The position numbers and the translations under genes are program-made. Shown here piece after piece: positions 906 to 28,281 of a DNA stretch of 64,000 nt (position 1 is its first letter; the number at the start of each line of letters is the position of its first letter). Source of the DNA: Pirellula sp. (GTDB lineage: Bacteria; Planctomycetota; Planctomycetia; Pirellulales; PNKZ01); NCBI GenBank assembly GCA_013822735.1, contig PNKZ01000001.1, positions 434,001 through 498,000 of the forward strand, read 5' to 3'. Below the pieces are notes generated by a model. That model saw only the letters and a program-made list of their open reading frames with translations. It had not been told where the DNA came from and searched no databases.

Positions 906-911
906 GCGAGG

Positions 912-4576: not shown

Positions 4577-4752
4577 GCGGATGTCTCCGAAACAAAACGC
4601 GGAGGTGCGATTACAAAACATACGGTAGCGCGGAGCGAGTCTGGTGATGCGGCGATTATAGCCTGCCGCAGGACGACAAGCATCCAAAGGCCGGGCCGAA
4701 ATGGAAGGTCGAGCCGTCTCGGGGGATCGTCGCCCGGCAGTTCGGCGGCCGC

Positions 4753-6918: not shown

Positions 6919-7067
6919 GCCGCCACCTACGACTGTCGACGTCGAGACTCTTAACGCATCCGATATTATGGATGCGTCGAAGAGTCGGTAGCAAGCGAAG
7001 TTTCTCGCTCGTCGCGCACTTGAGCGACGCGCCACGGTTGGACGCTTGTCGATGTGTGCGTCGTCGC

Positions 7068-8807: not shown

Positions 8808-8954
8808 GACGATCTCGCGACTTGGAAGGAAGGCGTCCGGTGTTCAGGACGCGCAACAAGCCTCGAATATCGGCCGGCGAAAGCTACCGGTCAACGAAGG
8901 AGGGGAATCGTACGAGTACGAGAGCGATGCCGAGCCGAACACGCGACGGCGGAT

Positions 8955-9707
8955 TCAGCCTTGAAGCCCCATTTCCCGCCGCTGTTCTCGTGCCGACGCC
9001 TGGTATCGCGCGTAATCGGCTTCATCTCGGCGGCAGGACGCACCTTTGAAAACCATCGCGAACGACCGACGATGTCGGTCTGCGGATAGATTGGCGTCGG
9101 CGCGGTGAATCGTCATGCCGTGATGGACGACCGCATCCCCGGGCTGAAGCGGCACGGCGACTTCCCCCAAGAAGTCGTCGGCCGAGTAGTCGGTGATCCC
9201 TTGCGAGAATCCCAGGATCTTCGACCTTGCGTGGTTTCGGTAGCCGCGCTGATGTGAGCCGGCGACGTATCGCAAACAGCCGTTCTCCGCATCCACGGCG
9301 TCTAGCGCCAACCAGATCGTGGCGACGTTTGCCGGCCGGAGACAGAAGTAATAATTGTCTTGGTGCGGAGGAGTCACATGATTCGTGGCGGGCGGCTTGT
9401 TAAACCATTCTGTCACACCCGGCTGAACAGGCTCCCCCACCAGGGCTTGTGCCAAAGCCGTCCATGTCGGATGCATTGCGTAGTCGCGGAAAAACGGATC
9501 CCCTTCCATTCGCTGCAATTGCTTCAGAGTCTCCGGCCGGCTGCGATCATGGTAGAAGGCGTCGGCATCCGCAAGCGTCGGCACGACCTCGCGAATGTAT
9601 CGGTCTAAGTTGTAGCGCAGTTCCGCAAAATCGGTTGCGCTTAAAAACTGCCGAACGACTACGAAGCCGTGTTGATCGTAGGCCTGCTTTTCGTAAGTAA
9701 AGGACAC
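8955..9707 (-). CDS. Phytanoyl-CoA dioxygenase family (PhyH) protein
   Basis: A 250-residue Fe(II)/2-oxoglutarate-dependent dioxygenase of the PhyH family, cytoplasmic. I choose a GTG start ending at 9707 because an AAGGAG Shine-Dalgarno lies 7 bases upstream (9715-9720) and the protein then begins at the conserved FTYEKQAYDQHGFVVVR. A longer frame reaching 9824 lacks support. The iron triad is visible as H115-x-D117 (TPPHQDNYY) and the distal His near 201 (HHGMTIHRADAN), with an Arg for 2-oxoglutarate shortly after (RHRRS). Family members hydroxylate small acyl or alkyl substrates; the substrate here cannot be told. It is divergent from the giant gene across ~490 bases. Confidence 0.88.
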   Translation of the reverse strand: MSFTYEKQAYDQHGFVVVRQFLSATDFAELRYNLDRYIREVVPTLADADAFYHDRSRPETLKQLQRMEGDPFFRDYAMHPTWTALAQALVGEPVQPGVTEWFNKPPATNHVTPPHQDNYYFCLRPANVATIWLALDAVDAENGCLRYVAGSHQRGYRNHARSKILGFSQGITDYSADDFLGEVAVPLQPGDAVVHHGMTIHRADANLSADRHRRSFAMVFKGASCRRDEADYARYQASAREQRREMGLQG

Positions 9708-10200
9708 CGAATTTCTCCTTGACTTCAACAACAACCGGCCTGATTTACAAATTGCCTGTGAACATACCGTAGGTACGGGGCGGCGTTCTTGGCAATCGCG
9801 CACGGCACTGCGTCTTACGTGCACGGTACTGCGGCGTTCAAGCTTCGGCCGGTTTTTAGGGATGCGATCTTAGGTCATGGCACTTCCGCTGCATCGGTCC
9901 AAGAGCTTTTGGTCCCTCCCCGCATGCGGCTCAGCAGTCTCTCGGGCAAACACCCTACGATCCGCGACATAATGACGTCGCTATCTGGACATTCGCACCC
10001 TCCTTTCCAGGGCACGAGTGTCGAAGCTCGGTGCGAAAACGACCGGGAATTCGGCCTAAATTGCCGCCTTTAGAAAACGGGGAACATTCCGTTGCCTGCC
10101 TAGCTAGGGGGTGTTAACCTGAACCCCCACATCAGGGGCATTTTGCAGAGCATTGGCCGGCCGCTCCTGTGTCAACCTACGAGACTGCAAAGGGCCGTGG
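9708..10200. other. Intergenic region upstream of the giant gene
   Basis: About 490 bases between two divergent genes. No convincing gene or tRNA is seen; the short open frames in it are not protein-like. It must hold the promoters of both neighbours, but I cannot assign planctomycete promoter boxes with confidence. Near its end is a G/C-run hairpin (10107-10128), listed separately. A TTG at 10153 is in frame with the giant gene but has no good ribosome-binding site. Confidence 0.6.
10107..10138 (+). promoter_or_regulatory. Hairpin(s) in the leader of the giant gene
   Basis: A run GGGGGT (10107-10112) can pair with ACCCCC (10123-10128) around a 10-base loop containing GTTAAC. The same C-run can instead pair with GGGG at 10135-10138. 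The two stems exclude each other and lie 63-94 bases before the chosen ATG. There is no T-run, so it is not a standard terminator. A regulatory role is speculation. Confidence 0.25.
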
Positions 10201-13200
10201 ATGAGGATTCAGTTTGCTCATTGGTGGGCTCTTTGGCGTCTTCGGATTCGAACCTGGCGACGACGCGTCAAGGTGGACGCACTTCAGCGACGAATGCCGG
10301 GGCGGCGACGCTTTCAATCGTTGGGCGTCGAAGCGTTGGAAGCCCGACAGGTGCTCGCGGCGAACTTTGCAGATGTCATTTCCGACCGGTGGATCGACGA
10401 TGAGTCGTCCACCGTGGTCTCGTTTCAAATTGTCGACTCCACCGTTCCGGCGAGTGCGTTAACCGTCACGGCGACGAGTAATAACGGCTTCGTCATCGGC
10501 GATGACGCGCTGGAGCTGTCGAATCTTGGCGACAACCGCTGGCTCTTGTTCGCCGCGCCGACTTTGCATCAATTCGGCACCGCGAAGATCACGCTCAGCA
10601 TCTTCGGCGACGGTTCGCCGGTCTCGGCGTCGTTTGACTTGCATGTCAGCGATCTGGGGTCCGGCTACGGAATCGTTTCGAGCGAATGGTTTGGGGCCTT
10701 CTCGACCGTTACCGGCTCCAGCGCCGGCCTGACGATTGAATCAACGGGCACCGATGCCGACCACACAAGTTCGAGCACCGTCGCCGGGCCCGAGGATACG
10801 GCTTCCGAATGGATCGTTCGCCTCACGGAGGAAGCGCTGGCCCACGTGCCGACGCTGCAAGAAGCGGCCGATTTCCTCACCGTGCCGGAAATCGGCATGA
10901 CCGTCGTCGCCGGCTTGGGCCTGCCGGGACAAATGCTCGTTCGCGCGACCGGCGCGCTGGCCGACGTACAAGACTATTTCCGTTCGAACACGGCTTTGCG
11001 GTATTTCGAACTCAATACCGTAATTTCGTCGCAGGCGGTTCCGAACGATCCGTCGTATGCAAGCCTCTACGGCCTGCACAACACCGGACAAACCGGCGGC
11101 GTGATCGATGCCGATATCGATGCGCCGGAAGCGTGGAATATCACTACCGGGAGCCGATCGATCGTCGTCGGCATCATTGATACTGGCATCGACTACAACC
11201 ATCTCGACCTCGCCGCCAACGTCTGGACCAACCCCGGGGAAATTGCCGGCAACTCGATCGACGACGACCAAAACGGCTTCATCGACGACATTCACGGCTT
11301 CGACTTCGTGAATAACGACGGCGACCCGATGGACGATCATTACCACGGCACGCACGTGGCGGGCACCATCGGCGCCGTGGGAAACAATTCTCTCGGCGTG
11401 GTCGGGGTCAATTGGCAAACGTCGATGATGGGCCTGAAGTTTCTGGATGCGGGCGGGCGCGGCACGACCGCCAATGCGATTCGGGCGGTGAACTACGCCA
11501 CGGTGATGAAGTCGACCTACGGCGTGAACATCCGTTTGACGAACAATAGTTGGGGCGGAGGAAGCTTCGATCAAGGATTGCTCGACGCGATTAACGCCGG
11601 CGGCGCGCAGGATATTCTCTTTATCGCCGCGGCGGGTAATGACGGCTTGAATATCGAGGCGGATCCTCACTATCCGGCGTCGTACAACTCGCAGTACATC
11701 GTGAGCGTGGCCGCAACGGATGCGAGCGATACCCTGGCGTACTTCAGCAACTACGGCGCAACGCAGGTTGACCTCGCGGCGCCGGGCGTGAGCACCTACA
11801 GCACCGCCCCTAACAACTCTTATCAGTCGCTCAGCGGTACGAGCATGGCGACGCCGCACGTGTCGGGGGTCGCAGCCCTGGCACTGAGCGTCAACCCGAG
11901 CCTGACGGCCGCGCAATTGAAGGCGGCGCTGTTAAACAACGTCGACGTCGTCCCCGCCTTGGTCGGGAAAACGCTCACCGGCGGTCGACTCAACGCCCAA
12001 AGGGTGTTGGAAGCGATGGGCCTGAGCGTCACGGCGACCTCTCCCGCCGCGGGCTCCGTGGTGCAAAGCAAGCCCACCTCGTTCACGGTCGACTTCAGTG
12101 CGAGCTACGACGGCGCGTCGATCGCCGCGAGCGATTTTCAAGTCAACGGAATCGCGGCGAGTTCGTTTACCTTGACGGATGCGAACACCGTCACGTTCAC
12201 GTTTAGCACCAGCCCGGTCACGGCTCCCGGCCTGCAAACGATGACGATGGCGGCGGGAGCCGTGTCGCGATTGAGCGACGGCGGCGCTCTCGCCGCATAC
12301 AGCGGCTCGTTCCGTTACGACGACGTCGTTCTCGCGCCGATTTCCACCACTCCCGCCACGGGCTCCATCGTGGCGCTGCCGTTCACGACGCTCGATGTGC
12401 AGTTCAACGAAGCGTTCGACCTGGCCAGCATCGGCGCCGCCGATCTGACGCTATCGCAAGGAACCGTGATCGCGGCGACCGCGCTGAACGCAACGACGGT
12501 GCGCTACACGCTTGCCGGCATCACCTCGGAAGGAACGCTCACCTATGCGTTCGCCGCCGGCGCGCTGATCGACGTCTTCGGAAGCCCGTCCGCCGCGTAC
12601 GGCGGAAGTTTTACGATCGATATCGGAACGGTCGCGCTGCCGACTCCGTCGCCGGTCGGCCTCTTGGGCAGCTTGGTCTATCAGACTTCGAGTTCCGGCA
12701 CGATCACCGGCAGCGGCGATATCGATGCCTTCACGCTCAACGTCGAGGCGGGACAAATCATCTCCGCTGTGGCTCATCCCAATGCCGTCGGTCTCCGGCC
12801 GTCGCTCGAGTTGCGTTCGCCGGCCGGAGTCGTCCTTGCGACGGCAACGGCCTCCGCCGCCGGCAAGGACGTCGGATTGGAAGGGATCGTCGCCGCGACC
12901 ACGGGTGCGTATACCTTCCATGTCTCGGGCGCAGCCGGCACCAGTGGTGCGCTAACGATTCAGGTCACGCTCAATGCCGCGCAAGAGGCGGAAAGAACCG
13001 GCGGCGCAACGAACGACACGCTCGCAACCGCGCAGAGTCTCGACGGAACGTTCACCTCCCTCGGCTCCAACGTTTCGCGCGCGGCGGTAATGGGCACGGT
13101 CACGGCAGGGAGCGTGACGGTCGCCTCCGAAGGATTCGAGAACGGATTTCCGGGCACCGCGTGGACGACGTACTCTTCCACCGCCAACGGGCGCATTCAA

Positions 13201-16200
13201 GTCGCTAGCGTCTACGGCGTTCACGGCGGCGCGAACGCGCTCTATATGGACACCTCATCCGGCTCAACGCTGAACGAGGCCGTTTGGACGGTCAACCTCG
13301 CCGGCCGCACGCAGGCGACGCTGAGCTTCTGGCATTCGGAGCAGGGGGACGAAGAAACCGCGTTCAGCGGCAATTTCACCGGCCACTACAACGCCGACGG
13401 CGTCGCCATCAGTGCCGACGGAGTTACCTGGATACCGCTTTGGAACGCCGCCACGCAATCGACGGGCGCCTGGACGCAATATTCGTTTGACCTCGCCGCC
13501 GCCGCTGCCGCCGCAGGTATTTCGCTGACGGCCAACTTCAAGATCAAGTTCCAACAGTACGACGACAATCCGTTGCCGACCGACGGGCGCGCCTGGGACG
13601 ATATCAGCATTACCGTCCCCGCGCCGACGGATGTCGACTGGTACAAGTTCACTTTGGCGGCCGGAGAGTCGGCCTCTCTCGTATTGAAGGGGCTTCCTTC
13701 CGCCAACGTCGTGGTGCGCCTTTACGATACGAACGGGAATCTGATCGCCAATGATGTTCCCAATACGATCGATTCGACGCGCGAGGTTTTGAACTATGAA
13801 GCGCCCGCGGCCGGCGCCTACTACGCTGCGGTTACGACGACGACCGAGAGCGACTACCAATTGTCCGTGTTGCGTAACGCGCAGTTCGAAAGTCGCAGCG
13901 GTTCGACGATCGCCTCGGCACAACCGCTGGGGGCCGCTTCCGGCGCGGTACTCGGCTACTTACCGCCATCGGGAGGACTCGGGCGTCTGTATGCCTTTGA
14001 TTCGTCCGCCTCGATGATTCGAGAGATCCATCCGACGACGGGAGCGATACTCAACAGTTTTGCGACGCCCGTAAGCGCAACGACGGCGCCGGACTTCGGA
14101 CTTGCGACGACCCCGACGAGCCTGCTTGCCGCGGGCATTTCGACGTCGCCGATTTACGAATTGAATCCTTCGACCGGCGCCGTGATCCGCACGATCGCCA
14201 ATCCCGGTATTAGTGTGAGCGGATTGGCCTATAGCAACGGCGAAATTTTCGTCCGCTCGGACGACACAAGCACGATTACCGTGCTCAACTATTCGACCGG
14301 CGCCGTCGTCCGAACGTTTACCGCGTCCGGCAACGAAGCGCTTGCCGCGGGTACCGACTACCTCTATTCCACATCAGGCTCGACGCTCTACACGCTCAAT
14401 TTGCAGACGGGGGCGCTCGTCAGCACCCGAACCTTATCCGCCAGCAGCAGCGTGGAAGGGCTCGGCGTCATCGGCGATGAACTGTACGTCTCCGATTTCA
14501 ACTTTATCACGGTCTACAACCGCCAGACGCTCGCCGTCGTAAGAACGATTACCGGCCTTAACGATCTGGAGGCGGTCGGCGCCGACGGAGGCGACGTCGT
14601 TCGCGGCGATTACTACTCGCTCACGTTGAACGCCGGTTCCGTACTCCAACTTTTAACATCGACCCCCGGCGATGCTCCTGGGGAATTTTCCAACTGGCTG
14701 GATCCGCTGGTGGAAGTTTACGATTCCCTCGGCGCGCTCGTAGCCTCGAACGACAACGGCGCCGGCGACGCACGGAACGCGTCGCTCTCTTACACGGCAA
14801 TCGCCGCCGGAACCTACTACGTTCGCGTGATCGCGTCGTCGGCCGCGGCGGGCACTAGCGCGATTGCCGGGGAATACCTACTCTCGTATTCCGGCGCGGC
14901 CGGTAACGTCGCGAGCTTTAGCGTCGCTTCCACGACGCCTGCCGCCGGCACGAAAGTGGTCGGCTTGTTGAACTCGCTCACGGTGAAATTTAGCGACGCC
15001 GTCGACCTCACGTCGCTGGCCGCTGCGGATCTCACAATCAACGGCGTCGCCGCGACCGGGGTGACGATCTCCGGAACCGACGGCGCCGTATTCACCTTCG
15101 CCGAGCCCCCGCGCGGCATGGTCACGTTTGCGTTGGCGGCAGGTTCCATCGTCGACTTGCAACAGACGCCGCTTGCCGCGTTTTCCGGACAGGTGAACTA
15201 CCAACTCAATTCGGCTCCGGTGCTCACGGCGACCCCTGCGCCGACGTTTACGTCGATTGTGGAAGACGGCAGCGGGCAGAGCGGAATGCTCGTCTCCGAA
15301 CTCCTGGCGACCGGTGCGGGAGGCAACCCTATTGCCGACGTCGACGTCGGCGACGGGCCGGGCATCGCCGTCGTCGCATCCGACACGACCAAAGGAACGT
15401 GGGAATACTCGCTCAACAACGGCGGAACCTGGACCGCGCTGGGAACCGTTTCGTCGACCGCCGCGCGATTGTTGGCTGCCGATGCGCAAACGCGGATTCG
15501 TTTCACCCCGACGGCGAATGCTTTCGGGACGGTGACTACCGCGTTGACGTTCCGCGCCTGGGATCAATCAACGGGCGCCAACGGCGCGACGGCCGACGTC
15601 GGTGCCGGAGGCGGGATCTCCGCATTCAGTACCGCAACGGCGGCGGCGGCTCTCACCGTGGTCGCCGTCAACGACGCCCCTTCGTTCACCAAGGGGGCGA
15701 ACATCAGCATTTCGTCCGACGGTTCCGCCAAAACATACACGAGTTGGGCGACGAGCATTTCGCAGGGTCCGAGCGAAACGGGGCAGACGCTGACGTTCCT
15801 CGTCACCAACGATAATAACGCATTGTTTTCGGTCCAGCCGACGATTAGTTCGACCGGGACATTGACCTTTACGCCTATTCTCAATGCTTCCGGCACCGCA
15901 ACCGTAAGCGTGCGCCTTCAAGACAACGGCGGCACGGCGAACGGGGGCGTCGATACGTCGGCCGTGCAAACCTTCACGATTACGCTCAACGCGCCGCCGA
16001 CATCAACGGTGATCGGCAGTCAAACGATCAACGAAGACGGCACGACCGGCATATTGACGTTCACCGTCAGCGACCCCGATACGCCGTTGACGTCGCTGAC
16101 CGTCTCGACGACGTCGACCAATACGACGTTGGTACCCACGTCAAGCCGCGTCCTCACCAACTTGGGCAACGGCAACTATCAGCTCGTCATTACGCCGGCC

Positions 16201-19200
16201 GCCAATCAAAGCGGCGCCGCGACGATCGGCTATTCCGTCTACGACGGCTTCTTAACGGTGAATCGCACTTTCGTGTTGACGGTCAACGCCGTCAACGATG
16301 CCCCTTCGTTCGTGAAGGGGGCCGACGTAACGGTGGCGCCGAACTCGGGTACGCAGACCATTAGCGGTTGGGCGACGAGCATTTCGCAAGGCGCGAGCGA
16401 GACCGGGCAAACACTCACGTTCCAGGTAACCACCGACAATCCGTCGCTATTCTCCGGTCAGCCCGCGATTAATTCATCAGGCACTCTGACGTTCGTGCCC
16501 AACGCGACGCTCGGCACCGCGACGGTGTCGGTCGTACTGAAAGACAATGGCGGCACGGCCAACGGCGGCGGCGACACTTCGGCGATCCAAACCTTCAAGA
16601 TCACCGTCGCCAATCCGCCGCGGATCATCAGCTCTTCGCTCCAACAAGGGGACGTTAGCTCGCCTGGAGCGCTTTCCGTCGTCATCGGCTTTGATCAACC
16701 GATGCTCGCCGCCAACTTGGATGTCTTTGATTTCACGCTGCAAGGGCTCGACCGCGGCACCACTTATAGCCCGATTTCTTACACGTACGACGCAGGCGCA
16801 ACCGCCGTCACGGTTAACTTCGTCAACCTTCCGGAGGATCGTTACACCCTGACGCTATTGAGCGGCAACGGGCAGTTTGAAAGTGCCGGCGGCCTGGACC
16901 TCGATGGCGAAGCGGTCAGTTGGCCGATACCGTCCAACGTCTCGGGCAACGGTGCGCCGGGGGGCAATTTCGTCGTGCCGTTTACCATCGACGTCGGCAC
17001 AACGAACTTCACGACGCCGTTGGTCGCCCAATCGCCGTTAGGGAGCCTCGTTTACGGAGGCGCCGTTTCCGGCGACATCACCGCCGCCGGAGATACCGAC
17101 ACCTATACGATTACGCTCGACGCAGGCCAGACGATTACCCTCACGGCGACCCCCAACGCCGGATCGGGGTTGCAGCCGACGCTCGTGCTCAAGTCGCCGT
17201 CAGGAACGGTACTCGCGACGCAAACCGCGAGTGCGGCCGGCAAGTCCGCGATCCTCTCGTCGATTTCCGTCGCCGTCGCGGGCACGTACTCCATCGAGCT
17301 GAGCGGCGCCGCTTCCACCACCGGCCTGGTCGATCTTCGCGTCTGGTTGAATGCCGGCGTCGAAAGCGAGAATCTCGGCGGCCCGACCAACGATAGCCTC
17401 GCTACGGCGCAAAACATTGACGCACAGATCTTATCCGTTTCGGGCGGAGCGTCGCGCGGCGCGATCATCGGCAGCGTTACGGGAAGTGCGGCGGGAAGTA
17501 CGACGCTCTCCGCGATTGATTCCGGCTGGTGGAACAGTCTCGGTTCCCACACCAGCAGCAACAACAACTATGTCGTGGGGTACGGGTCGTCGGAAAGCGC
17601 CGACAGGCGCAACTTCTTCGTCTTCGATCTTGCATCGGTCTCGCAAAGTATCCTCACGGCTCAGCTGCGACTTCAGAATCCGTCTTCCGGATATACTAGC
17701 TCGGATGCTTCCGAATCGTACGCTCTCTTCGACGTGTCGACGGCACTCGCCGCACTTCAAGGCAGCGGTTCCGGTCAGACCGCAATCTACACCGATCTCG
17801 GTACCGGCGTGACTTACGGCGGACAAACCGTCACCAGCGCGAGCAACGGTCAAATCGTCCTCGTCGACCTCAACGCGGCAGGTTTGAGCTATCTGAATTC
17901 CGTCCGCGGTTCAAAAGGCGTAATCGGCGGCGCCATCACGACCATTGTCGGGACCGCCGATCAGTTTGTGTTCGGATACACGGCCGGGACGGAGACTCGG
18001 CAACTTGTTTTGACGTACGCTGCGATCAATGCGGTCGACTACTACGCCTTTACCCTTGCTGCCGGCGAGCGCGCGACGATCGGCTTGAAACAACTCACCG
18101 GCTTAGGCACGACGATTTCCTTGCTCGACGCCGGAGGTGCGACGCTCGCTTCCGGCGCCGCGGGCGCATCGTTCGATCAGGCGATCTCAGATTTCGTCGC
18201 ACCGGCCGCAGGTACGTACTATATCGCGGTGAACAATGCGACGAATTCGTCGACGTACAATCTCGTCGTTGCGAAGAACGCCGCCTTCGACAACGGCGCG
18301 AACAATTCGGTAGCAACCGCGCAGAATATCACGGCGACGCCGACGGCTCTCGGCTACGTAAATGCGACCTCGGATTACTACTCGATTCAAATCGCGGGCG
18401 CCTCGCTGCTGACCATTTCCACGACGACGCCGGGAGACGGGCCGGGGCAGTTCGTCAATAATCTCAATCCCGCCGTCGATCTCTATGATTCCACGGGCAA
18501 GCTTTTGGCGTCGAACGACGACGGCGCCGCCGACGGTCGTAATGCGACGTTAAATTACATCGCATCCGGCGGTACTTACACGATTCGAGTAAGAGCGACG
18601 AGTGGTTCCGGCGAGTACGTGCTCGGAATAGCCCAAAGTTCCCCCGGAGCGCCGCCGACGATCTCGCCGATCGCCGACGTCTCAATCGCCGAAGATGCGA
18701 CGGCCGTAATTGATTTCACGGTGACCGACTCGGATACGCCGCTCAATCAGCTCGTCGTGTCCGTATCGAGCAGTGATTCGACCCTGCTGCCGGCCTCCGG
18801 AGTAACACTTACGGATCTTGGCGGCGGCGCGTGGCGGCTGAGCGCAGCGCCCGCCGCAAATCAATACGGACCGGTCACCGTGACCGTGGCGATCAGCAAC
18901 AGCGAAGCCCCCGTCACGCAATCGTTTGTTCTGAACGTTCGGCCTGTAAATGATGCCCCTTCGTTTACGAAAGGCGCCGACCTGAGCGTTCCGGGGCTCG
19001 CGGGGGCCCAGTCCGTCGCAGGCTGGGCGACCAATCTCTCCACGGGTGCAAACGATGCGGGCCAAACGCTTGATTTCATCGTCAGCAACGACAACAACGG
19101 CCTCTTTAGCGTCCAGCCGACGATCACCCCGGCCGGTACGCTTCAGTACACGCTCTCCGGACTCTTGGGCACCGCCGTCGTTTCTGTCCGCTTGCACGAT

Positions 19201-22200: not shown

Positions 22201-25200
22201 GCCCCGTCGTTCAATCTTGGAGCCAATCAAACGATCGGCTATTACGCCGGAGCGCAGGCGATCACTAATTTCGCGTCGAGCGTTTCCGCCGGACCGTTCG
22301 AAACCGGACAGGTGCTCACGTTCGAAGTCACGACCGACAACCCCAGCCTGTTCACCGTCGCTCCCGCCATTACCGGCTCGACCCTGACCTACACGCCGTC
22401 GGGCATCTTGGGAAGCGCGAACGTCACCGTGCGTCTGCACGACAACGCGGGCACCGCCGACGGAGGCCAGGACACTTCGGTCGTCAAAACATTCAAGATC
22501 GATATCGTCGCGGGCGGCATCGCAGGCGCGCTCGACACGTCCTTCGACGGCGACGGCATCCTCATGATTCCTTCCAGTTTAGGAAGCTTCGACCAGGGAC
22601 GCGCGGTTGCGCGGCAGGCGGACGGAAAGCTTATCGTCGTCGGGAACAGTCTGTTCAGTTCCTCATCGAATAACTATTCGACCATCGTGCGCTACAACGT
22701 CGACGGAACGCTCGACACCTCGTTTGGAGCCGAAGGCGCGTACGTCACCGCGACCGGAATCCGCCTGACGGCCGTCAAACTCACGGCGGACGGAAGGATT
22801 CTGTTGGCAGGCGAGCAAAATACGAGCACATACGTAACACGACTGACGGCGGCCGGCACGCTGGATACATCTTTCGGTCTCAACGGCGTGAGAACCGTCA
22901 GCACCGGCAACACCGCGATCAATGCAAGCTTCAACACCTCCCTGGCCATCGCCGGCGACGGGAGCATCGCCGTCGCCAAATACAGTTCCACCGCCGGAGC
23001 ATACAAGGCTGCCGTGGTTCGTCTGACGGCGGGAGGCAGCCTCGATACTTCTTTCGGCGGCGGCCCGGGATACGTCCTCGTCAGCTTCTTAGGATCGTTG
23101 GATACACCGTCCGATCTGGCGTTCCAGGCCGACGGCAAGATTGTCGTCGTCGGGACGACGAATAGCGGACAAGGTAGTACGAATGACTATTTCGTTGCGC
23201 GGCTGACCTCGAACGGAGCCCTAGATACGACGTTCAACGTCACGGGATTCACGAGAGTAAACGTCGGAACCTCGACGACGAGCGCCGATACTGCGTCGCG
23301 TGTCGCAATTCAAACCGACGGCAAGATCGTGGTCTCCGGGTCGTCATCGGCCGACTTCAGCCTCATTCGTCTCAATTCCAACGGTACGCTCGATACGACG
23401 TTCGACGCCGACGGCAAGGTTACGACCAATATCAGCGGCACCGACGCCGGCGCGGCGCTGGCCTTGCAAGCCGACGGTAAGATCGTCGTCGGTGGCTCCG
23501 CCGCCTCCGGCACGGATCTTGCGATTGCCCGCTATACTTCTGCAGGCGCGCTCGACACGACTTTCGGGACTGCGGGGAAAGCGACCTATTCCATTTCGAC
23601 GGGCCTCGCCGAGTCGATCAGCGCAATGCTGCTCGATGGTTCGGGAAACATCGTCGGCGTCGGCAATAGCGCCGACGGTACGAATTCCGGCGATATTCTC
23701 GTCGCGCGCTGGGACGCGACCGGTCTATTAGATAAAACCTTCAACGACAAGGGCTGGAACGCCTACAACTTCGGCATCGGGCACTCGCGCGCTACGGCGA
23801 CACTTGCGTTGTCTGACGGGCGCATCCTGCTTGCCGGAATACTGGTTGAGTCTGGGACCTCGACGTCTTCGGGACGTGCCGTCGTGTGGATGCTCCGTCC
23901 GGACGGATCGCTCGATACGTCTTTCGGAGTCGGCGGATACTACCGTTCCCCCTCGGGCGTCTCAAGCATCACGGCCGTGACCGTTCAAAGCGACGGCAAG
24001 ATTTTATTTACCGACTCCTCCCAGAATCGTGTAACGCGCCTGACCGCCTCCGGAACGCTCGACACGACATTTGGAGTCTCCGGAAGTCTGTTCTTTTCCC
24101 AACTCCTCGCGGCGTCGACCGGCATTGCCGTTCTCCCGGATGATTCTTTGTTGATTTCGGGTCAAAGATTCAATTCGACGACGTCGCAATACGAGTTTGC
24201 GATCTACCGTTTCACGGCTTCCGGTGCCGTTGACACGACATTCGGCGGCGGCGGGCTCGCGGCGATCGACGTCGGTTCCGGCGACGACTTCACGGCGGCA
24301 ATCGCGCTACAAAGCGACGGCAAGATCATCATCGCCGGCTATTCCACACAAACGACCGATGACTTCTCCGTCGTGCGACTTAACGCGGACGGCTCGCTCG
24401 ATACCTCCTTCGCGGGCACGGGCAAACTGATCATACCTGTCAGTACGAGCACGGATCGCGTGCGCTCCATCTTGGTACAGAACGACGGCAAGATCGTGCT
24501 TGCCGGCCAGACCTCGGGCGACATCGCGCTCGTTCGACTACTCACGGACGGCACTCTCGATCCGACTTTCGGTTCGGGCGGCATCGTCGTTTCGGCTTGG
24601 AGCACCAGCACGGACGACGTAACTTCCATCCGGCAATCTGCCGATGGAAAATTACTGGGCGTCGGGTGGGGGCTTATTGGTACGTCAACGAAAGTGATCG
24701 TGGCTCGCTACAATACCGACGGCGCGCTCGACTCGATGTTTGGCGTCGGCGGTTTGTTGAAGACGCCGCTCGGTCCCGGTTTGTCGCAAGCATATGCCGC
24801 CGATCTGCAAACCGACGGCAAGTTGCTGATCGCCGGGTACGCGTACCAGGGACTTCGCAACGACGCGCTCGTCGCGCGCTACTGGTTGGGGGGCACCGCC
24901 GGCGATGCGCCCGCCATTGCTCCGCTCGGCCCGCAAAACGTCAACGAAAACGGCGTCAGCGCGCCGATTGACGTCTATGTCTCGCATCCGTCGCTGCCCG
25001 CCGATTCGCTCACGCTCACAGCGAGCGGCGGCGCCTGGGTGCCTCCTTCAGGCTTCACGTGGACGAACCTCGGCAACGGGCACTGGCAAGTTACGATCGC
25101 ACCTGTTGCGAACACCGCGGGCGACGCACTCATCACGCTGACGACGTCGGACGGAACGCTTTCTTACGCTTCTACGTTTAACCTGCACATTAACGCCTTA

Positions 25201-28200
25201 CCCGTCGTCGACCTCAACGGCCCTGCGGCGGGAGTCGATTTCGCGACGACGTTTATCGAAGATGCGTCGTCGCAGCCGATTTCATCGCCGGACTTGGCGC
25301 TCGGTGATTCCGACGGGACGACGCTTACATCGGCGCTCGTCACCATTACGAACCTCTTGGACGGCGATGCGGAATCACTGTCGGCGGCCGTCGGCGGCAC
25401 GGGCATCACGGCAAGCTATGCGGCAGGAGTCCTTTCGCTGAACGGCACGGCAAGCCTGGCCGACTATCGGCAAGTGCTCGGCACCGTTTCGTACCGCAAC
25501 ACTTCTCAATCTCCGACTGCCGCAACACGCCTGTTGACTTTCGTCGTGAGCGATGGGTCGGCAACTAGCCGCACGGCGACGAGCGCCGTCACCGTCACGC
25601 CGGTGAATGACGCACCGACCACGGTCGCGAATCTCGGCCTGACCTTGGCCGAAGGGGGCACTGCGGTAGTCGGCGGAAGCGCGCTGAGGACCGAAGATGT
25701 CGACAACACTGCGGCGCAGTTGGTCTACACCGTGACCAGTTTGCCGAGCCACGGCTCTTTGAACTTGAGCGGGGTCGCGCTCGGCGCGAACGGCACCTTC
25801 ACGCAAGCCGATCTCGACGCCGGCCGCGTCAGTTACACGCACGACTCTTCGGAGGACTCCGCCGACAACTTCACGTTTACGGTGAACGACGGCGGATTCA
25901 CGCTTGCTTCCGCAATGTTCTCGATCACGATCACTCCGGTGAATGACGCACCGACGCCCGGCGCGAACCTCGGTCTGACGTTGGCTGAAGGGGGCACTGC
26001 GGTAGTCGGCGGTAGTGCGCTGATGACGAACGACGTCGATAACGCAGCGGCGCAGTTGATCTACACCGTGACCAACCTACCGAGCCACGGTTCTTTGAAC
26101 TTGAGCGGAGTCGCGCTCGGCGCGAACGGCGCCTTCACACAGGCCGATCTCGACGCCGGCCGCGTCTCGTACACGCACGACTCTTCGGAGATCTTCACCG
26201 ACAATTTCACGTTCACGGTCAGCGACGGCGAGTTCCCGCTCTCTTCCGCGACGTTTGCGCTCACGATCACGCCGGTGAACGATGCACCGACGGCCGGCGC
26301 AAACCTCGGACTGACGTTGCCCGAAGGGGGCACGGTTGTCCTGGACGGCGCACAACTCAAGACGAACGACGTCGACACCGCGGCTACCCAACTGGTCTAC
26401 ACCGTGAGCAACCTGCCGAGCCACGGCACGCTCCATCTGAACGGCGCGGCCCTCGCGACCAACGGCGTCTTCACGCAAGCCGATCTCGATGCCGGCCGGG
26501 TCGGCTACACGCACGACTCTTCGGAGAATTTTGCCGACGCGTTCGATTTTACCGTGACCGACGGCGAGTTCCCGCTCTCTTCCGCGACGTTCGCCTTCAC
26601 GATCACGCCGGTCAACGACGCTCCGGTGATCGCGCCGCAGAACTTCATTCTCTACAACAAGGCGGTCGCCGGAACCGTCGTCGGCACGGTCTTGGCCTCC
26701 GATCGCGACGCCGGACAGCAGCGCAGCTTCGCGCTGCTAGGCGGCAACGGCGCCTTGACGATCAACGCCGCCACCGGCGTCCTGACCGTCGTCAACTCCA
26801 AGCTGCTCATCGGCACGGTCCTCGACTTCGTCGTCCGCGTTACGGACAACGGCGCTCCCGCGCTGGCGACCGACGCGGCGATCTCCGTCAGCCTGCGGGC
26901 CGCCGATGCCCCGCCGACGTTCGCCGTCGTCGACGGCGCCGCGACGCCGCTCGCCGTCGTCAGGAATCAAGTCAAGCTCCTGCTCGACGAACGGACCGAC
27001 GTCACCGGCACGCGCAATGGTCTGGTGATCGCCGGCCTAGCCGCGGCCGACGTCGACGAGCCGGGGGTCGGCTTCCCGCTGACCATGACCGACAGGTCCG
27101 GCGCCTTCGCGTTCGACGCCGCCACCGGCCGACTCTCGATTCGCGACGAGGCCAAGCTCGATTACGAGAAGACCCGCAGCTTCACTCTCACCTTCACGGC
27201 GACCGACCACGGCCTCGTCGGCCTTCCCAAGCCGACGACGGCGACGTTGACGATGACGGTGCAATTGGTCGACCGCAACGATACCCCCACGGTCACCTCC
27301 GCGGCGACGTTCAAGCTCAAGGAGAACAACAGGGCCAACGCCGCGGTCGGCACGATCAAAGCCGTCGACGCCGACGGCGCCGCCCCATTCAAGAATCTCC
27401 AATACGGCCTCGTCAGCCAGCGCGACGCCGCCGGCAACGACGTCGCGATCTTTACGATCGATGCGGCCCGCGGCACGTTAAAAATCGCCGCCGCCAATGC
27501 GTTGAACTACGAAGCCCAACCGCAGTACACGGTCGTCGTGAGGGCTCGCGACGCCGGGGGGCTCTTCACCGATCAAACCGTCACCGTGCAAGTTATCGAC
27601 GTCAACGAAGCGGTCGTGCTCACGCTGCTCGACGCTGCACAGACCCCGACGACCGGTCTAACGGTCCCGGAAAACACGGCCAACGGCACGCTCGTCGGCT
27701 ACCTCCGCATCGACAACCCGGACGAAGCGCGCCCCGAGACGTTCAAGATCACCGTCGGCGACAACCTCGGGAAGGCCTTCGCCGTCGGTGCGTTCGATGT
27801 CGCTACGCACTTGGCGCCGATCACCGTCCTCAACGCCGCGAAGCTCAATTACGAAGCCGTCAAGAACGGCCAGTTCAGCCTCAGCTTCTCCGTCGGCGAT
27901 TCCGGCTTCATCAACAACGACGGTTCCAGGCTCGGCGGTGTTTCGGTTACCAAGACCTACAAATCGCTCGTCGCCGACGTCAACGAAGCGCCCGCTTCGA
28001 TCACCTGGAAGACCGCGGGACTGCCGGGGGGCTCCGCTCCCATTCCCGCCGGCACCCTCTTCGGCACCGCGCTTGCCGTCGATCCCGACAAAACCCCGCA
28101 AGCCTTCAACTACTCCCTCACCCCGGCCGCTCTTCACAACGACCTCTTCACCATCGACCCGCTCACAGGACAACTAAGAGCAAGCCTCGCCCTGGCTCGA

Positions 28201-28281
28201 AGGGGCGTCTTCAACGTGTCGATTCGCGTCCTCGACTCCGGCGGACTCATCATGGATCAAATCTTCACGATCAAGACCTGA
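10201..28281 (+). CDS. Giant secreted subtilisin-like modular adhesin/protease
   Basis: About 6026 residues from the ATG at 10201, preceded by AAAGGG six bases upstream. An in-frame TTG at 10153 would add 16 residues. Residues ~42-54 hold LEARQVLAA, a variant of the planctomycete LEPRxLL export motif, after a basic arginine-rich segment. Residues ~200-605 are a prodomain and an S8 peptidase with Asp327 (IIDTGID), His382 (HGTHVAG), oxyanion Asn480 (AAAGND) and Ser548 (GTSMATPHVSG), all intact. Then come Ig-like domains; three supermodules built from PPC-like, jelly-roll or RNFFVFDL-type, and cadherin-like domains; 14 delta-60 motifs (~4106-4897); three 112-residue CSPG-like repeats (~5135-5470); and cadherin-like repeats to the end. 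There is no dockerin, PEP-CTERM or membrane anchor. It is probably extracellular or cell-surface, with protease and adhesion roles inferred from the domains. Confidence 0.92.
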   Translation: MRIQFAHWWALWRLRIRTWRRRVKVDALQRRMPGRRRFQSLGVEALEARQVLAANFADVISDRWIDDESSTVVSFQIVDSTVPASALTVTATSNNGFVIGDDALELSNLGDNRWLLFAAPTLHQFGTAKITLSIFGDGSPVSASFDLHVSDLGSGYGIVSSEWFGAFSTVTGSSAGLTIESTGTDADHTSSSTVAGPEDTASEWIVRLTEEALAHVPTLQEAADFLTVPEIGMTVVAGLGLPGQMLVRATGALADVQDYFRSNTALRYFELNTVISSQAVPNDPSYASLYGLHNTGQTGGVIDADIDAPEAWNITTGSRSIVVGIIDTGIDYNHLDLAANVWTNPGEIAGNSIDDDQNGFIDDIHGFDFVNNDGDPMDDHYHGTHVAGTIGAVGNNSLGVVGVNWQTSMMGLKFLDAGGRGTTANAIRAVNYATVMKSTYGVNIRLTNNSWGGGSFDQGLLDAINAGGAQDILFIAAAGNDGLNIEADPHYPASYNSQYIVSVAATDASDTLAYFSNYGATQVDLAAPGVSTYSTAPNNSYQSLSGTSMATPHVSGVAALALSVNPSLTAAQLKAALLNNVDVVPALVGKTLTGGRLNAQRVLEAMGLSVTATSPAAGSVVQSKPTSFTVDFSASYDGASIAASDFQVNGIAASSFTLTDANTVTFTFSTSPVTAPGLQTMTMAAGAVSRLSDGGALAAYSGSFRYDDVVLAPISTTPATGSIVALPFTTLDVQFNEAFDLASIGAADLTLSQGTVIAATALNATTVRYTLAGITSEGTLTYAFAAGALIDVFGSPSAAYGGSFTIDIGTVALPTPSPVGLLGSLVYQTSSSGTITGSGDIDAFTLNVEAGQIISAVAHPNAVGLRPSLELRSPAGVVLATATASAAGKDVGLEGIVAATTGAYTFHVSGAAGTSGALTIQVTLNAAQEAERTGGATNDTLATAQSLDGTFTSLGSNVSRAAVMGTVTAGSVTVASEGFENGFPGTAWTTYSSTANGRIQVASVYGVHGGANALYMDTSSGSTLNEAVWTVNLAGRTQATLSFWHSEQGDEETAFSGNFTGHYNADGVAISADGVTWIPLWNAATQSTGAWTQYSFDLAAAAAAAGISLTANFKIKFQQYDDNPLPTDGRAWDDISITVPAPTDVDWYKFTLAAGESASLVLKGLPSANVVVRLYDTNGNLIANDVPNTIDSTREVLNYEAPAAGAYYAAVTTTTESDYQLSVLRNAQFESRSGSTIASAQPLGAASGAVLGYLPPSGGLGRLYAFDSSASMIREIHPTTGAILNSFATPVSATTAPDFGLATTPTSLLAAGISTSPIYELNPSTGAVIRTIANPGISVSGLAYSNGEIFVRSDDTSTITVLNYSTGAVVRTFTASGNEALAAGTDYLYSTSGSTLYTLNLQTGALVSTRTLSASSSVEGLGVIGDELYVSDFNFITVYNRQTLAVVRTITGLNDLEAVGADGGDVVRGDYYSLTLNAGSVLQLLTSTPGDAPGEFSNWLDPLVEVYDSLGALVASNDNGAGDARNASLSYTAIAAGTYYVRVIASSAAAGTSAIAGEYLLSYSGAAGNVASFSVASTTPAAGTKVVGLLNSLTVKFSDAVDLTSLAAADLTINGVAATGVTISGTDGAVFTFAEPPRGMVTFALAAGSIVDLQQTPLAAFSGQVNYQLNSAPVLTATPAPTFTSIVEDGSGQSGMLVSELLATGAGGNPIADVDVGDGPGIAVVASDTTKGTWEYSLNNGGTWTALGTVSSTAARLLAADAQTRIRFTPTANAFGTVTTALTFRAWDQSTGANGATADVGAGGGISAFSTATAAAALTVVAVNDAPSFTKGANISISSDGSAKTYTSWATSISQGPSETGQTLTFLVTNDNNALFSVQPTISSTGTLTFTPILNASGTATVSVRLQDNGGTANGGVDTSAVQTFTITLNAPPTSTVIGSQTINEDGTTGILTFTVSDPDTPLTSLTVSTTSTNTTLVPTSSRVLTNLGNGNYQLVITPAANQSGAATIGYSVYDGFLTVNRTFVLTVNAVNDAPSFVKGADVTVAPNSGTQTISGWATSISQGASETGQTLTFQVTTDNPSLFSGQPAINSSGTLTFVPNATLGTATVSVVLKDNGGTANGGGDTSAIQTFKITVANPPRIISSSLQQGDVSSPGALSVVIGFDQPMLAANLDVFDFTLQGLDRGTTYSPISYTYDAGATAVTVNFVNLPEDRYTLTLLSGNGQFESAGGLDLDGEAVSWPIPSNVSGNGAPGGNFVVPFTIDVGTTNFTTPLVAQSPLGSLVYGGAVSGDITAAGDTDTYTITLDAGQTITLTATPNAGSGLQPTLVLKSPSGTVLATQTASAAGKSAILSSISVAVAGTYSIELSGAASTTGLVDLRVWLNAGVESENLGGPTNDSLATAQNIDAQILSVSGGASRGAIIGSVTGSAAGSTTLSAIDSGWWNSLGSHTSSNNNYVVGYGSSESADRRNFFVFDLASVSQSILTAQLRLQNPSSGYTSSDASESYALFDVSTALAALQGSGSGQTAIYTDLGTGVTYGGQTVTSASNGQIVLVDLNAAGLSYLNSVRGSKGVIGGAITTIVGTADQFVFGYTAGTETRQLVLTYAAINAVDYYAFTLAAGERATIGLKQLTGLGTTISLLDAGGATLASGAAGASFDQAISDFVAPAAGTYYIAVNNATNSSTYNLVVAKNAAFDNGANNSVATAQNITATPTALGYVNATSDYYSIQIAGASLLTISTTTPGDGPGQFVNNLNPAVDLYDSTGKLLASNDDGAADGRNATLNYIASGGTYTIRVRATSGSGEYVLGIAQSSPGAPPTISPIADVSIAEDATAVIDFTVTDSDTPLNQLVVSVSSSDSTLLPASGVTLTDLGGGAWRLSAAPAANQYGPVTVTVAISNSEAPVTQSFVLNVRPVNDAPSFTKGADLSVPGLAGAQSVAGWATNLSTGANDAGQTLDFIVSNDNNGLFSVQPTITPAGTLQYTLSGLLGTAVVSVRLHDDGGSADGGVDTSTVQTFTIEVSPPPQIVGSSLQQGAVVSVGALSYVVTFSGAMKASNLDATDFKLHGNLRNVDYVPTGFSYNPGATSVTLDFASLPEDSYTLTLLSGDGRFENVAGRDLDGEPLAWPIPGNVSGDGIDGGNFSVNFSVDGGAVAIPSAFTADPLPGSTVYRSGSAAVYIADVADTDDVTVNLDAGQSFSALITSSAGLQAAVSVYAPGGQLLGTYSAAAVGGALGVQSIAAVDAGVYTLRITGVGGTLGSASVVLTLNAALETESVAGPANSNDSRATAQNLDGAFTDLGGGAARAAVTGAGGTRVLPSENFESGLLGAAWSTYSSLTGTNIRLGNANGVHGGSYALYMDAATSSYTLNEAVWSANLADLTNATLTFWHAEFNDEENPLAAVFTGHANGDGVAISADGNTWYRLWDPVTQNSGVWTQYSFDLVAAAATAGISLNSDFKIKFQQYDDFAMTTDGRAWDDITLTTTNSDADYYSLTLAAGESLSVALKKQSGVGAPQVMLQDGAGTVVASGTTGGGIDSAIHNFVAPTAGTYYLAVAGSLISPYTVAVTRNAAFDGGANANLATAQNIGALRTVVGYADASSDFYSVHLSYDTTLTLATSLPGAGTSAFDNTLFPGVELFDSAGNSLGSNAGGAADGRNALLTRIVAAGDYKLRVYAASNAGEYVLRVSEGPASASPTVSGLTDVTINEDGVATLDFSVSDVDTPSTKFVVGAFSGDATLLPAGNLAVTDLGGGNYRLVAAPAANRYGTVNISVSVSDGSPPIVTTFALHVAAVNDAPSFSKGADQTSRSSGAVSIPGWATAISQGALESGQALTFQLTVDNPAFFAVAPAITPDGTLTYTPSGMLGTALITVVLKDDAGTASGGADTSAPQSFTVTFIAAPTISSVADQTVLEDGEFTVDFRVDDLDTSLTSLVVGATSADQTLLPNAGLTLTDLGGGNFRLSGRPAADRNGATTISLTASDGFGAPTVRTFALNVTAVNDAPSFNLGANQTIGYYAGAQAITNFASSVSAGPFETGQVLTFEVTTDNPSLFTVAPAITGSTLTYTPSGILGSANVTVRLHDNAGTADGGQDTSVVKTFKIDIVAGGIAGALDTSFDGDGILMIPSSLGSFDQGRAVARQADGKLIVVGNSLFSSSSNNYSTIVRYNVDGTLDTSFGAEGAYVTATGIRLTAVKLTADGRILLAGEQNTSTYVTRLTAAGTLDTSFGLNGVRTVSTGNTAINASFNTSLAIAGDGSIAVAKYSSTAGAYKAAVVRLTAGGSLDTSFGGGPGYVLVSFLGSLDTPSDLAFQADGKIVVVGTTNSGQGSTNDYFVARLTSNGALDTTFNVTGFTRVNVGTSTTSADTASRVAIQTDGKIVVSGSSSADFSLIRLNSNGTLDTTFDADGKVTTNISGTDAGAALALQADGKIVVGGSAASGTDLAIARYTSAGALDTTFGTAGKATYSISTGLAESISAMLLDGSGNIVGVGNSADGTNSGDILVARWDATGLLDKTFNDKGWNAYNFGIGHSRATATLALSDGRILLAGILVESGTSTSSGRAVVWMLRPDGSLDTSFGVGGYYRSPSGVSSITAVTVQSDGKILFTDSSQNRVTRLTASGTLDTTFGVSGSLFFSQLLAASTGIAVLPDDSLLISGQRFNSTTSQYEFAIYRFTASGAVDTTFGGGGLAAIDVGSGDDFTAAIALQSDGKIIIAGYSTQTTDDFSVVRLNADGSLDTSFAGTGKLIIPVSTSTDRVRSILVQNDGKIVLAGQTSGDIALVRLLTDGTLDPTFGSGGIVVSAWSTSTDDVTSIRQSADGKLLGVGWGLIGTSTKVIVARYNTDGALDSMFGVGGLLKTPLGPGLSQAYAADLQTDGKLLIAGYAYQGLRNDALVARYWLGGTAGDAPAIAPLGPQNVNENGVSAPIDVYVSHPSLPADSLTLTASGGAWVPPSGFTWTNLGNGHWQVTIAPVANTAGDALITLTTSDGTLSYASTFNLHINALPVVDLNGPAAGVDFATTFIEDASSQPISSPDLALGDSDGTTLTSALVTITNLLDGDAESLSAAVGGTGITASYAAGVLSLNGTASLADYRQVLGTVSYRNTSQSPTAATRLLTFVVSDGSATSRTATSAVTVTPVNDAPTTVANLGLTLAEGGTAVVGGSALRTEDVDNTAAQLVYTVTSLPSHGSLNLSGVALGANGTFTQADLDAGRVSYTHDSSEDSADNFTFTVNDGGFTLASAMFSITITPVNDAPTPGANLGLTLAEGGTAVVGGSALMTNDVDNAAAQLIYTVTNLPSHGSLNLSGVALGANGAFTQADLDAGRVSYTHDSSEIFTDNFTFTVSDGEFPLSSATFALTITPVNDAPTAGANLGLTLPEGGTVVLDGAQLKTNDVDTAATQLVYTVSNLPSHGTLHLNGAALATNGVFTQADLDAGRVGYTHDSSENFADAFDFTVTDGEFPLSSATFAFTITPVNDAPVIAPQNFILYNKAVAGTVVGTVLASDRDAGQQRSFALLGGNGALTINAATGVLTVVNSKLLIGTVLDFVVRVTDNGAPALATDAAISVSLRAADAPPTFAVVDGAATPLAVVRNQVKLLLDERTDVTGTRNGLVIAGLAAADVDEPGVGFPLTMTDRSGAFAFDAATGRLSIRDEAKLDYEKTRSFTLTFTATDHGLVGLPKPTTATLTMTVQLVDRNDTPTVTSAATFKLKENNRANAAVGTIKAVDADGAAPFKNLQYGLVSQRDAAGNDVAIFTIDAARGTLKIAAANALNYEAQPQYTVVVRARDAGGLFTDQTVTVQVIDVNEAVVLTLLDAAQTPTTGLTVPENTANGTLVGYLRIDNPDEARPETFKITVGDNLGKAFAVGAFDVATHLAPITVLNAAKLNYEAVKNGQFSLSFSVGDSGFINNDGSRLGGVSVTKTYKSLVADVNEAPASITWKTAGLPGGSAPIPAGTLFGTALAVDPDKTPQAFNYSLTPAALHNDLFTIDPLTGQLRASLALARRGVFNVSIRVLDSGGLIMDQIFTIKT
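12640..22510 (+). repeat. Three ~3-kb supermodules in the giant gene
   Basis: Three copies of the same domain order can be followed: PPC-like 1, an exchangeable domain, PPC-like 2, PPC-like 3, then cadherin-like plus NDAPSF-type domains. Copy A spans about 12640-16600, B 16620-19260 and C 19270-22510. B and C both open with an Ig-like domain starting at the shared string SSLQQG. The exchangeable slot holds a jelly-roll in A and C (GVHGG, LNEAVW, KIKFQQYDD) but a different sandwich in B (RNFFVFDL). In A, PPC 3 is split by about 215 residues of propeller-like sequence (13960-14600). The NDAPSF-type domain occurs five times, near 15667, 16288, 18948, 21577 and 22192. Confidence 0.8.
22525..24890 (+). 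repeat. 14 delta-60-type repeats in the giant gene
   Basis: The translated segment contains 14 occurrences of the pattern G-x-L-D-x-[ST]-F followed by glycines, usually after a strand with DGKI[VL][VL]xG. Spacing is roughly 50-60 residues. This matches the delta-60 repeat family found in large bacterial surface proteins and predicts one or two beta-propellers. It occupies about 790 residues between the last supermodule and the CSPG-like repeats. Confidence 0.82.
25603..26610 (+). repeat. Three exact-period 336-bp tandem repeats (CSPG-like)
   Basis: The junction sequence for VNDAP recurs at 25603, 25939, 26275 and 26611, so three units of exactly 336 bp (112 residues) lie head to tail. Each encodes NLGLTL.EGG, LPSHGSL.L.G, FTQADLDAGRV.YTHDSSE and a DGEF-type strand, typical of chondroitin-sulfate-proteoglycan (cadherin-like) repeats. 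Units 1 and 2 are closest at base level, which points to recent duplication. Confidence 0.9.

Follow-up and report, generated by a model that had tools for sequence, protein, structure and literature searches.

How does a bacterial protein of several thousand residues come to carry unlike domains at matching positions of a repeated architecture? This question is raised by a giant gene in a 64,000-nucleotide stretch of DNA from Pirellula sp. (contig PNKZ01000001.1, positions 434,001 to 498,000; the window), whose product combines an N-terminal S8 subtilase with three copies (A to C) of a series of PPC domains. A first, sequence-only reading of this gene attributed its variable positions to recent cassette exchange within repeated supermodules. 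Based on a comparison with related genomes, we consider it fairly probable that the gene encodes a giant, probably secreted protein on a repeated scaffold with two sockets per unit, and that the cargo domains displayed on this scaffold were exchanged long ago. In the model that we propose, each unit would comprise an immunoglobulin-like (Ig-like) domain and three tandem PPC beta-sandwiches (PPC1 to PPC3), of which PPC2 and PPC3 would offer one socket each. The socket would be a short turn between an N-terminal part of the fold (ND..ATAQ..GAVxG) and a D-x-Y-x-F strand. Since a foreign domain inserted into this turn would not break the PPC fold, cargoes could be gained, lost and replaced while the rod remains unchanged.

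Two variable slots in each scaffold copy

Comparison of the protein with itself gave matches far beyond chance for the jelly rolls of copies A and C (E 5e-60), for the end of one copy together with the Ig-like domain after it (E 8e-48), and for the cadherin-like and NDAPSF domains of copies B and C (E 2e-45), confirming that three copies of a PPC-based domain series follow the protease in one frame. PPC matches above the cut-off of 25.9 bits (PF04151) reached 93.8 and 44.9 bits. The order of the PPC domains had been described correctly, but an Ig-like domain of the Big_5 or BFL type ahead of each copy had been left out, and the single NDAPSF domain assigned to every copy is found in copy B, whereas A and C have two each. 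Throughout this analysis, residue numbers are counted from the TTG codon at 10153 and not from the ATG at 10201.

The content of slot 1, which precedes the core of PPC2, is as previously described: copies A and C carry jelly rolls that are 60% identical, and copy B carries an unrelated sandwich. A common family for the jelly roll and the B cargo was rejected (hhalign probability 0.2%). However, there is not one variable slot per copy but two. In the gap between PPC2 and PPC3 copy A holds a propeller-like domain of 222 residues, compared with 5 residues in copies B and C.

All-or-none filling of the slots in related genomes

We parsed 64 scaffold units from 41 proteins of 33 genomes, representing 31 genera and 12 families. 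These units were drawn from loci chosen for fetching because of their stronger matches, and are a selection from all matches; 37 of 98 near-full-length PPC1 matches fell outside the 64 units, due to contig ends, to matches that were themselves PPC2 or to an extra PPC domain in between. For three of the 64 units the PPC1 match begins further in. The units are not independent of each other, as seen for L034 and L035, two loci of one genome with near-identical units.

Slot 1 measures at most 10 residues in 27 units and 116-814 residues in 37, and slot 2 measures 5-30 residues in 18 units and 108-800 in 46; lengths between these ranges do not occur in either slot. Both slots are filled in 20 units, only slot 1 in 17 and only slot 2 in 26, while a single unit has both slots empty. 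The rarity of doubly empty units gave a Fisher p of 1.6e-4, and drawing one unit per protein gave a median p of 0.007 with a range of 0.0004-0.13.

The 83 cargoes form 23 clusters, 8 of which are single. Pfam matches among them include FG-GAP_2 (11), NIDO (8), ThuA (4), PQQ_2 (4), Peptidase_S8 (3), InhA-like_MAM (3, a count that does not identify which cargoes are concerned) and Laminin_G_3 (2). One slot-2 cluster with 11 members of about 400 residues, found in L034, L035, L036, L064 and L066, recurs in successive units of one protein; its L034 cargo showed seven FG-GAP_2 stretches when scanned alone.

Probable nesting of cargoes inside PPC domains

The conserved flanks of slot 1, NDTxATAQ...GAVxG before and DVDYYxFxL... 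after it, correspond to two parts of one PPC domain, as judged by a profile of PPC1 and the segment that follows it. In the 27 units whose slot 1 is empty, the sequence continues across the slot without a break, and their profile is one contiguous PPC domain of 158 positions. With this profile, both PPC halves were found in 32 of the 37 units with a filled slot 1, the first half ending at positions 52-63 and the second beginning at positions 40-57. This check of the half-domain junctions concerned slot 1. In the case of slot 2, conserved flanks indicate that its position in PPC3 is the same as that of slot 1 in PPC2. In addition, a profile of nine empty sockets aligns through the slot with the PPC domain of the collagenase ColG, where the slot is a short turn in GSLLG-DDSRDYYSF. 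Because the PPC domain is uninterrupted in empty sockets but split by the cargo in filled ones (in the window, slot 1 of copies A, B and C and slot 2 of copy A), we regard a PPC domain with cargo as a nested variant of this domain. The supermodule, previously taken as the moving unit, gives way here to a cargo domain nested in a PPC loop.

These data bear directly on a simpler explanation, ordinary domain accretion, according to which the cargoes lie between successive PPC domains, nothing is nested and the conserved stretch ahead of the slot is a linker. In agreement with accretion, the Pfam model of PPC begins at the DVDYYSF strand (the best match, residues 1160-1228, starts from model position 1), placing the cargo between domains by Pfam limits, and the N-terminal stretch is not placed confidently in structure models. 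However, empty sockets run through this stretch into the core in 27 units, solved collagenase PPC domains are likewise continuous over the slot, and the stretch is retained where a cargo is present. We consider accretion unlikely, although it deserves to be taken seriously.

Some results weigh against nesting. Both halves were not recovered in 5 of the 37 filled units, two of them without the N-terminal half and three with this half slightly past the limit, and among the 32 two-half units three N-terminal halves scored below 10 bits. AlphaFold confidence is low for the N-terminal PPC half, with 10-residue means of 28-71 over the first 40 residues of model A5 and of 27-34 in model A7. When the model of copy B was compared with the PDB, 10 of the 50 listed rows spanned the insert, with 89-97 residues aligned compared with 81-86 in core-only rows; structure therefore contributes little, and nesting rests mainly on sequence. 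The PPC fold of the models matched 3jqw, 5sv5, 5iku and 3afg, and the models support both cargo folds well and the N-terminal PPC half poorly. The location of the slots at one fixed place inside the PPC fold is thus firm as judged by alignment and weak as judged by structure models.

Movement of cargoes between sockets and genes

Besides the fixed place of insertion and the all-or-none filling, the comparison established that cargo families are shared, one of them between both sockets and stand-alone frames. It includes the slot-1 cargo of copy B, which is 62% and 57% identical to the slot-2 cargoes of L040 (genome G072) and L043 (G097), both from another bacterial family (f17), in units whose scaffolds are 41-47% identical to that of copy B. 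Within the order, 15 of 19 matches to the B-cargo family are located in frames of 227-368 residues. Nine of these 15 small frames were fetched. By eye, these stand-alone relatives (232-293 residues) consist of a signal-like stretch, the domain and a PEP-hydrophobic-basic tail; the PEP-CTERM model TIGR02595 reached its cut-off of 16 in three of the nine, stayed below it in two and was absent in four, and the Pfam PEP-CTERM matches were below cut-off in the three frames scanned.

An S8 subtilase occupies slot 2 of L023, L041 and L044. According to a quick tree of 14 of the 15 S8 domains, from which the short S8 domain of L093 was left out, the N-terminal and slot-2 domains of L044 are sisters (Shimodaira-Hasegawa-like approximate likelihood ratio test, SH-aLRT, 95), and L023 and L041 form a separate clade (100). 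The tree thereby establishes one slot-2 subtilase as the sister of the N-terminal one in its own protein. All four catalytic residues are kept in the slot-2 S8 domains of L023 and L044. The slot-2 subtilase of L041 (residues 1504-1766, frame 103-7794) has Leu at the position of the catalytic Ser and is perhaps a pseudo-protease that serves as a binding cargo. A fervidolysin prodomain was matched in the slot-2 S8 inserts of L023 and L041 but not in that of L044.

Further signs of movement come from L050, which has one cargo family in both slots, and from the 12 proteins with at least two parsed units, 11 of which differ in cargo between units (the exception being L036). On a tree of the scaffolds, the minimum number of cargo changes is 25 for slot 1 and 34 for slot 2. 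This tree has six starred two-row forks. Half of them combine unlike cargoes (in slot 2 for L056/L057 and L044/L063, in both slots for L050/L093); in the other three, whose cargoes agree, the two rows come from a single genome or a single genus.

Two observations limit this picture of exchange. Only 3 of the 15 clusters with at least two members occur in both sockets, the others being confined to one (e.g. 11 of 11, 9 of 9, 9 of 9 and 5 of 5 members), and free interchange between the sockets was therefore rejected; the largest two-socket cluster (c0) is chained via long multi-domain inserts and should not be taken as one family. The scaffold tree is poorly resolved, with 11 of 61 branches starred, and the minimum numbers of changes may be inflated.

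Could the same pattern have arisen by deletion, without any exchange, if an ancestral unit had contained many cargoes and its descendants kept different ones? Such differential loss fits with the frequency of empty sockets (27 and 18 of 64), and the tree counts are blind to gain versus loss. However, 23 cargo clusters are unlikely to have been present in two sockets at once, one cargo family is found in different sockets, and the slot-2 protease of L044 is the sister of its own N-terminal protease. We regard differential loss as highly improbable. The initial proposal of cassette exchange in a repeated scaffold thus holds in that slot content differs and moves across the 64 units of 33 genomes, whereas the moving unit, the number of slots and the age of the exchange turned out to be different. 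The exchange probably occurred by recombination between repeated scaffold copies or paralogous genes.

Age of the exchange and distribution of the scaffold

The three scaffolds of the window are 41-47% identical to one another, and copy B has practically equal identity to L040 (46.6%) and to copy A (46.7%). Because the scaffolds have diverged to this extent, we take the swap that set copy B apart to be old. By contrast, recent shuffling in the gene would mean that copy B replaced a jelly roll by the RNFFVFDL domain through gene conversion or recombination. The pair A-C could be read in this way: its jelly rolls are 60.6% identical, the highest value of 36 pairs, with scaffolds at 41.4%, and this excess over the trend is the largest of the 36 (8 points, 2.2 standard deviations). 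But in every one of the 36 pairs the jelly rolls resemble each other more than the scaffolds do, and jelly-roll identity follows scaffold identity (Spearman rho 0.77); the copies themselves are far apart, and the closest long repeats found in the gene are the C-terminal Cadherin_3 repeats (86%), not the supermodules. Recent shuffling is largely refuted by these results, and we consider it improbable. The A-C excess may be a slight hint that sequence was copied or converted inside the gene, though not recently.

Three congeners were also searched. None of them (0 of 3) matched the scaffold, the jelly roll or the B domain at the thresholds used, and conservation of the gene across the genus was rejected. 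Next to the gene that corresponds to the downstream ABC ATPase (82-83% identical), the stretch examined in each of these three genomes showed no giant frame, but two of the contigs end about 6 and 7.5 kb away from it; given these nearby contig ends and upstream neighbors on other contigs, the locus is not a clean empty site. Compared with a relative from the same family (L021 of G004), divergence is uneven, with identities of 75% for S8, 52% for the jelly roll, 43% for the propeller and 34-49% for the PPC domains, which could also be explained by differing constraint.

Among 296 genomes belonging to the same order, a profile of the Ig-like domain and PPC1 (A1) matched at least 78 at 1e-10 and at least 37 of these at 1e-20. 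Both counts are lower bounds, since no more than 6-8 candidates were scored for each genome; moreover, the 78 genomes are not a count of scaffolds, many weak matches covering the Ig-like part alone. In a phylum-wide draw, at least 3 of 392 genomes matched A1 at 1e-20, one of them being the window's own genome. Database records matching most of a related profile were, among the matches listed, metagenome-assembled genomes of Pirellulales, Planctomycetales, Planctomycetia and Planctomycetota. A distant genome of the same phylum (G454, L093) shows the order S8-Big5-Big5-PPC1-jelly roll-PPC2-PPC3, with a jelly roll 53% identical to that of copy A; this architecture would be either ancient or transferred.

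Cargo folds and possible functions

The structure model of the copy A jelly roll matched 4gwm (Z 14.6) and 4itc (Z 14.3), and the A/C cargo shares its fold with MAM domains, gingipain cleaved adhesins and carbohydrate-binding modules (CBM) of the CBM4/CBM16 type (Z 14.6, 14.3 and about 12), although the jelly rolls of the window have no significant Pfam match. The model of the B cargo matched 8wab (Z 15.6 over 165 residues, root-mean-square deviation 3.6) and 7vbo (Z 13.3), a chondroitin-sulfate-binding and an alginate-binding CBM. This likeness is one of fold and comes from a predicted model; at E up to 1, no solved chain matched the B cargo in sequence. When solved structures were searched for relatives of the cargoes by sequence, none was convincing. 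The NCBIfam model DNRLRE had hits in four of the nine stand-alone B relatives, all below cut-off.

Judging from these folds, the cargoes may be presented laterally as binders of glycans or matrix. The N-terminal protease, which is predicted to be active, may trim its own protein or digest matrix. The second gene upstream codes for a sulfatase (window 7068-8807), which fits, without showing, a role with sulfated glycans.

The product as we propose it would be a secreted rod whose PPC loops display exchangeable domains, both binding and catalytic. Calcium may stiffen the rod of PPC and cadherin domains. The calcium ligands of ColG suggested an acidic motif pattern. Of the 64 units, 47 have an acidic calcium-type motif (E-x-E..N[DNH]) in the PPC2 half and 33 match a less strict pattern in PPC3, none of the three PPC3 domains of the window being among them; a universal calcium motif was rejected. 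The PPC domains of collagenases are described as having a Ca2+-switched linker (PMC4356367). Since the segment ahead of the slot corresponds to this linker, cargo presentation could be calcium-gated, which we regard as possible.

Coding frame and further features of the locus

The frame 10201-28281 contains no internal stop and starts at ATG 10201 or at TTG 10153. The encoded protein is acidic (computed isoelectric point 4.25) and has 2 Cys in 6042 residues (TTG numbering). From the N-terminus, it consists of a basic stretch, a cadherin-like domain, S8, two Big_5-like Ig domains, the three PPC copies, delta-60 stretches, Cadherin_3 and cadherins (Table 1). About 1900 residues after copy C, with 14 delta-60 stretches, three Cadherin_3 repeats and cadherins, were missing from the initial description, whose anatomy was right apart from this and the points given above. 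Compared as DNA, the first Cadherin_3 repeat shares 86% identity with the second and 74% with the third; these are the closest long repeats found in the gene.

The N-terminal S8 domain matched Peptidase_S8 (PF00082) at residues 335-597 with 195.6 bits (cut-off 21.8). An alignment with 14 other S8 domains showed that the catalytic Asp, His and Ser and the oxyanion Asn are all kept, confirming the intact protease that had been noticed from the sequence. Ahead of it, the N-terminus combines the basic stretch with VEALEARQVLAA, a LEPR-XLL-like motif common to relatives. The pattern LE-x-R-x-L-L, here LEARQVLAA, was also found in 26 other scaffold-bearing frames and gave 2 chance matches in helicase-like frames. 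The curated NCBIfam models for LEPR-XLL, a motif read as an export signal, did not match the giant protein at E up to 1. The protein is probably secreted and may be exported through this N-terminus.

In line with the earlier description, no anchor or sorting domain was matched at the C-terminus in Pfam and NCBIfam scans of the giant protein, and a Pfam scan of the whole protein gave no match to cellulosome-type dockerin or cohesin at E up to 0.01. The type IX sorting model TIGR04183 (cut-off 23) reached 23.7 and 28.2 bits at residues 1517-1562 and 3218-3273, inside PPC domains, and found nothing at the C-terminus.

Table 1. Features of the giant gene in window coordinates
Feature	Coordinates	Strand	Remark
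Whole coding sequence	10201..28281	+	6026 aa from ATG; TTG 10153 likewise in frame
N-terminal motif VEALEARQVLAAN, LEPR-XLL-like, preceded by basic stretch	10327..10365	+	possible export signal
S8 subtilase catalytic domain	11155..11952	+	Asp/His/Asn/Ser kept
Two Big_5-like Ig domains	12022..12606	+	
Copy A: PPC1 and N-terminal half of PPC2	12607..13098	+	
Copy A slot 1: jelly-roll cargo, MAM/gingipain-adhesin/CBM4-16-like	13099..13611	+	
Copy A: PPC2 core and N-terminal half of PPC3	13612..13941	+	
Copy A slot 2: propeller-like cargo, DUF6923/PQQ_2-like	13942..14607	+	overlooked in the sequence-only reading
Copy A: PPC3 core	14608..14907	+	
Copy A: Big_5-like Ig domain	14908..15246	+	Pfam match below cut-off
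Copy A: NDAPSF / cadherin-like / NDAPSF	15652..16620	+	
Copy B: BFL Ig-like domain, PPC1, N-terminal half of PPC2	16621..17472	+	
Copy B slot 1: RNFFVFDL cargo, fold of chondroitin/alginate-binding CBMs	17473..18027	+	
Copy B: PPC2 core, empty slot 2 (5 aa), PPC3	18028..18648	+	
Copy B: cadherin-like and NDAPSF	18649..19278	+	
Copy C: BFL, PPC1, N-terminal half of PPC2	19279..20130	+	
Copy C slot 1: jelly-roll cargo, 60% identical to that of copy A	20131..20646	+	
Copy C: PPC2 core, empty slot 2 (5 aa), PPC3	20647..21270	+	
Copy C: two cadherin-like/NDAPSF pairs	21274..22512	+	
14 delta-60 stretches (TIGR02608/DUF5122, propeller type)	22513..24867	+	outer limits approximate
Three Cadherin_3 repeats, spacing 336 nt	25589..26560	+	repeat limits as found by DNA-level repeat comparison
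C-terminal cadherin-type repeats, anchor not matched	26561..28278	+	start approximate

The adjacent downstream gene encodes a two-domain ABC ATPase, presumably of the ABC-F type. Just upstream of the giant gene (window 1313-9824, minus strand) are genes for an SGL lactonase, a lactonase with a 3-keto-disaccharide hydrolase, a DUF1501 protein, the sulfatase and a PhyH protein. Elsewhere in the window (51056-58228, minus strand), the UvrA interaction and DNA-binding domains each occur as two stretches in a protein of 2390 residues, which represents a double-length UvrA.

Relation to known systems and implications

The PPC (bacterial pre-peptidase C-terminal domain) family (PF04151) includes the collagen-binding domains of ColG and ColH, to which the scaffold domains are linked by Pfam family, by the sequence match to ColG through the slot and by a shared fold. 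Where ColG has a short turn, the slots described here hold domains of 108-814 residues, and PPC, elsewhere a C-terminal add-on, forms an internal repeated scaffold. Giant proteins are known from Planctomycetes: Stieleria varia has 12 giant genes and giant cadherin/tandem-95 proteins (PMC7717043), and giant proteins are covered by a survey of huge proteins (PMC11573180). Like these, the window protein exceeds 5000 residues, contains cadherin-like and tandem-95 domains and has predicted functions in adhesion and calcium binding; the available parts of both accounts are concerned with domain content and do not mention sockets or cargo exchange. Polymorphic toxins likewise have a conserved carrier and exchanged modules that also exist as stand-alone cassettes (PMC3482391), but the cargo of the window protein is internal and nested and its C-terminus is of the cadherin type. 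Neither the giant protein nor its scanned neighbors matched a toxin domain or an immunity gene, and the protein is not a polymorphic toxin member. A search of the open-licence literature on giant planctomycete proteins, PPC insertions and nested domains gave nothing on PPC sockets or cargo exchange among the matches listed. The parts are known, and we see the two-socket arrangement as a new variant.

On a wider scale, the PPC sandwich could be a general two-port insertion scaffold in this order, probably Pirellulales. Domains known also from stand-alone exported proteins, propellers, glycan binders and even a subtilase together with its prodomain would be inserted at one turn of PPC2 or PPC3 and would change places among sockets, genes and families; both ports would almost never be empty at once, and calcium gating would be possible. 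We see the arguments for and against this generalization as evenly balanced.

Accounts of giant proteins in bacteria usually amount to inventories of their domains. Should the two-socket reading be true, the assembly and diversification of such proteins would instead follow a rule, with a single tolerant turn in each sandwich, insertion that is all or none, and cargoes in common with free-standing genes. Such a rule would predict the positions of new domains in many unannotated planctomycete proteins and would provide a natural display frame for engineering arrays of enzymes or binders. The variety of cargoes across related bacteria suggests a general way to build giant surface proteins from swappable parts.

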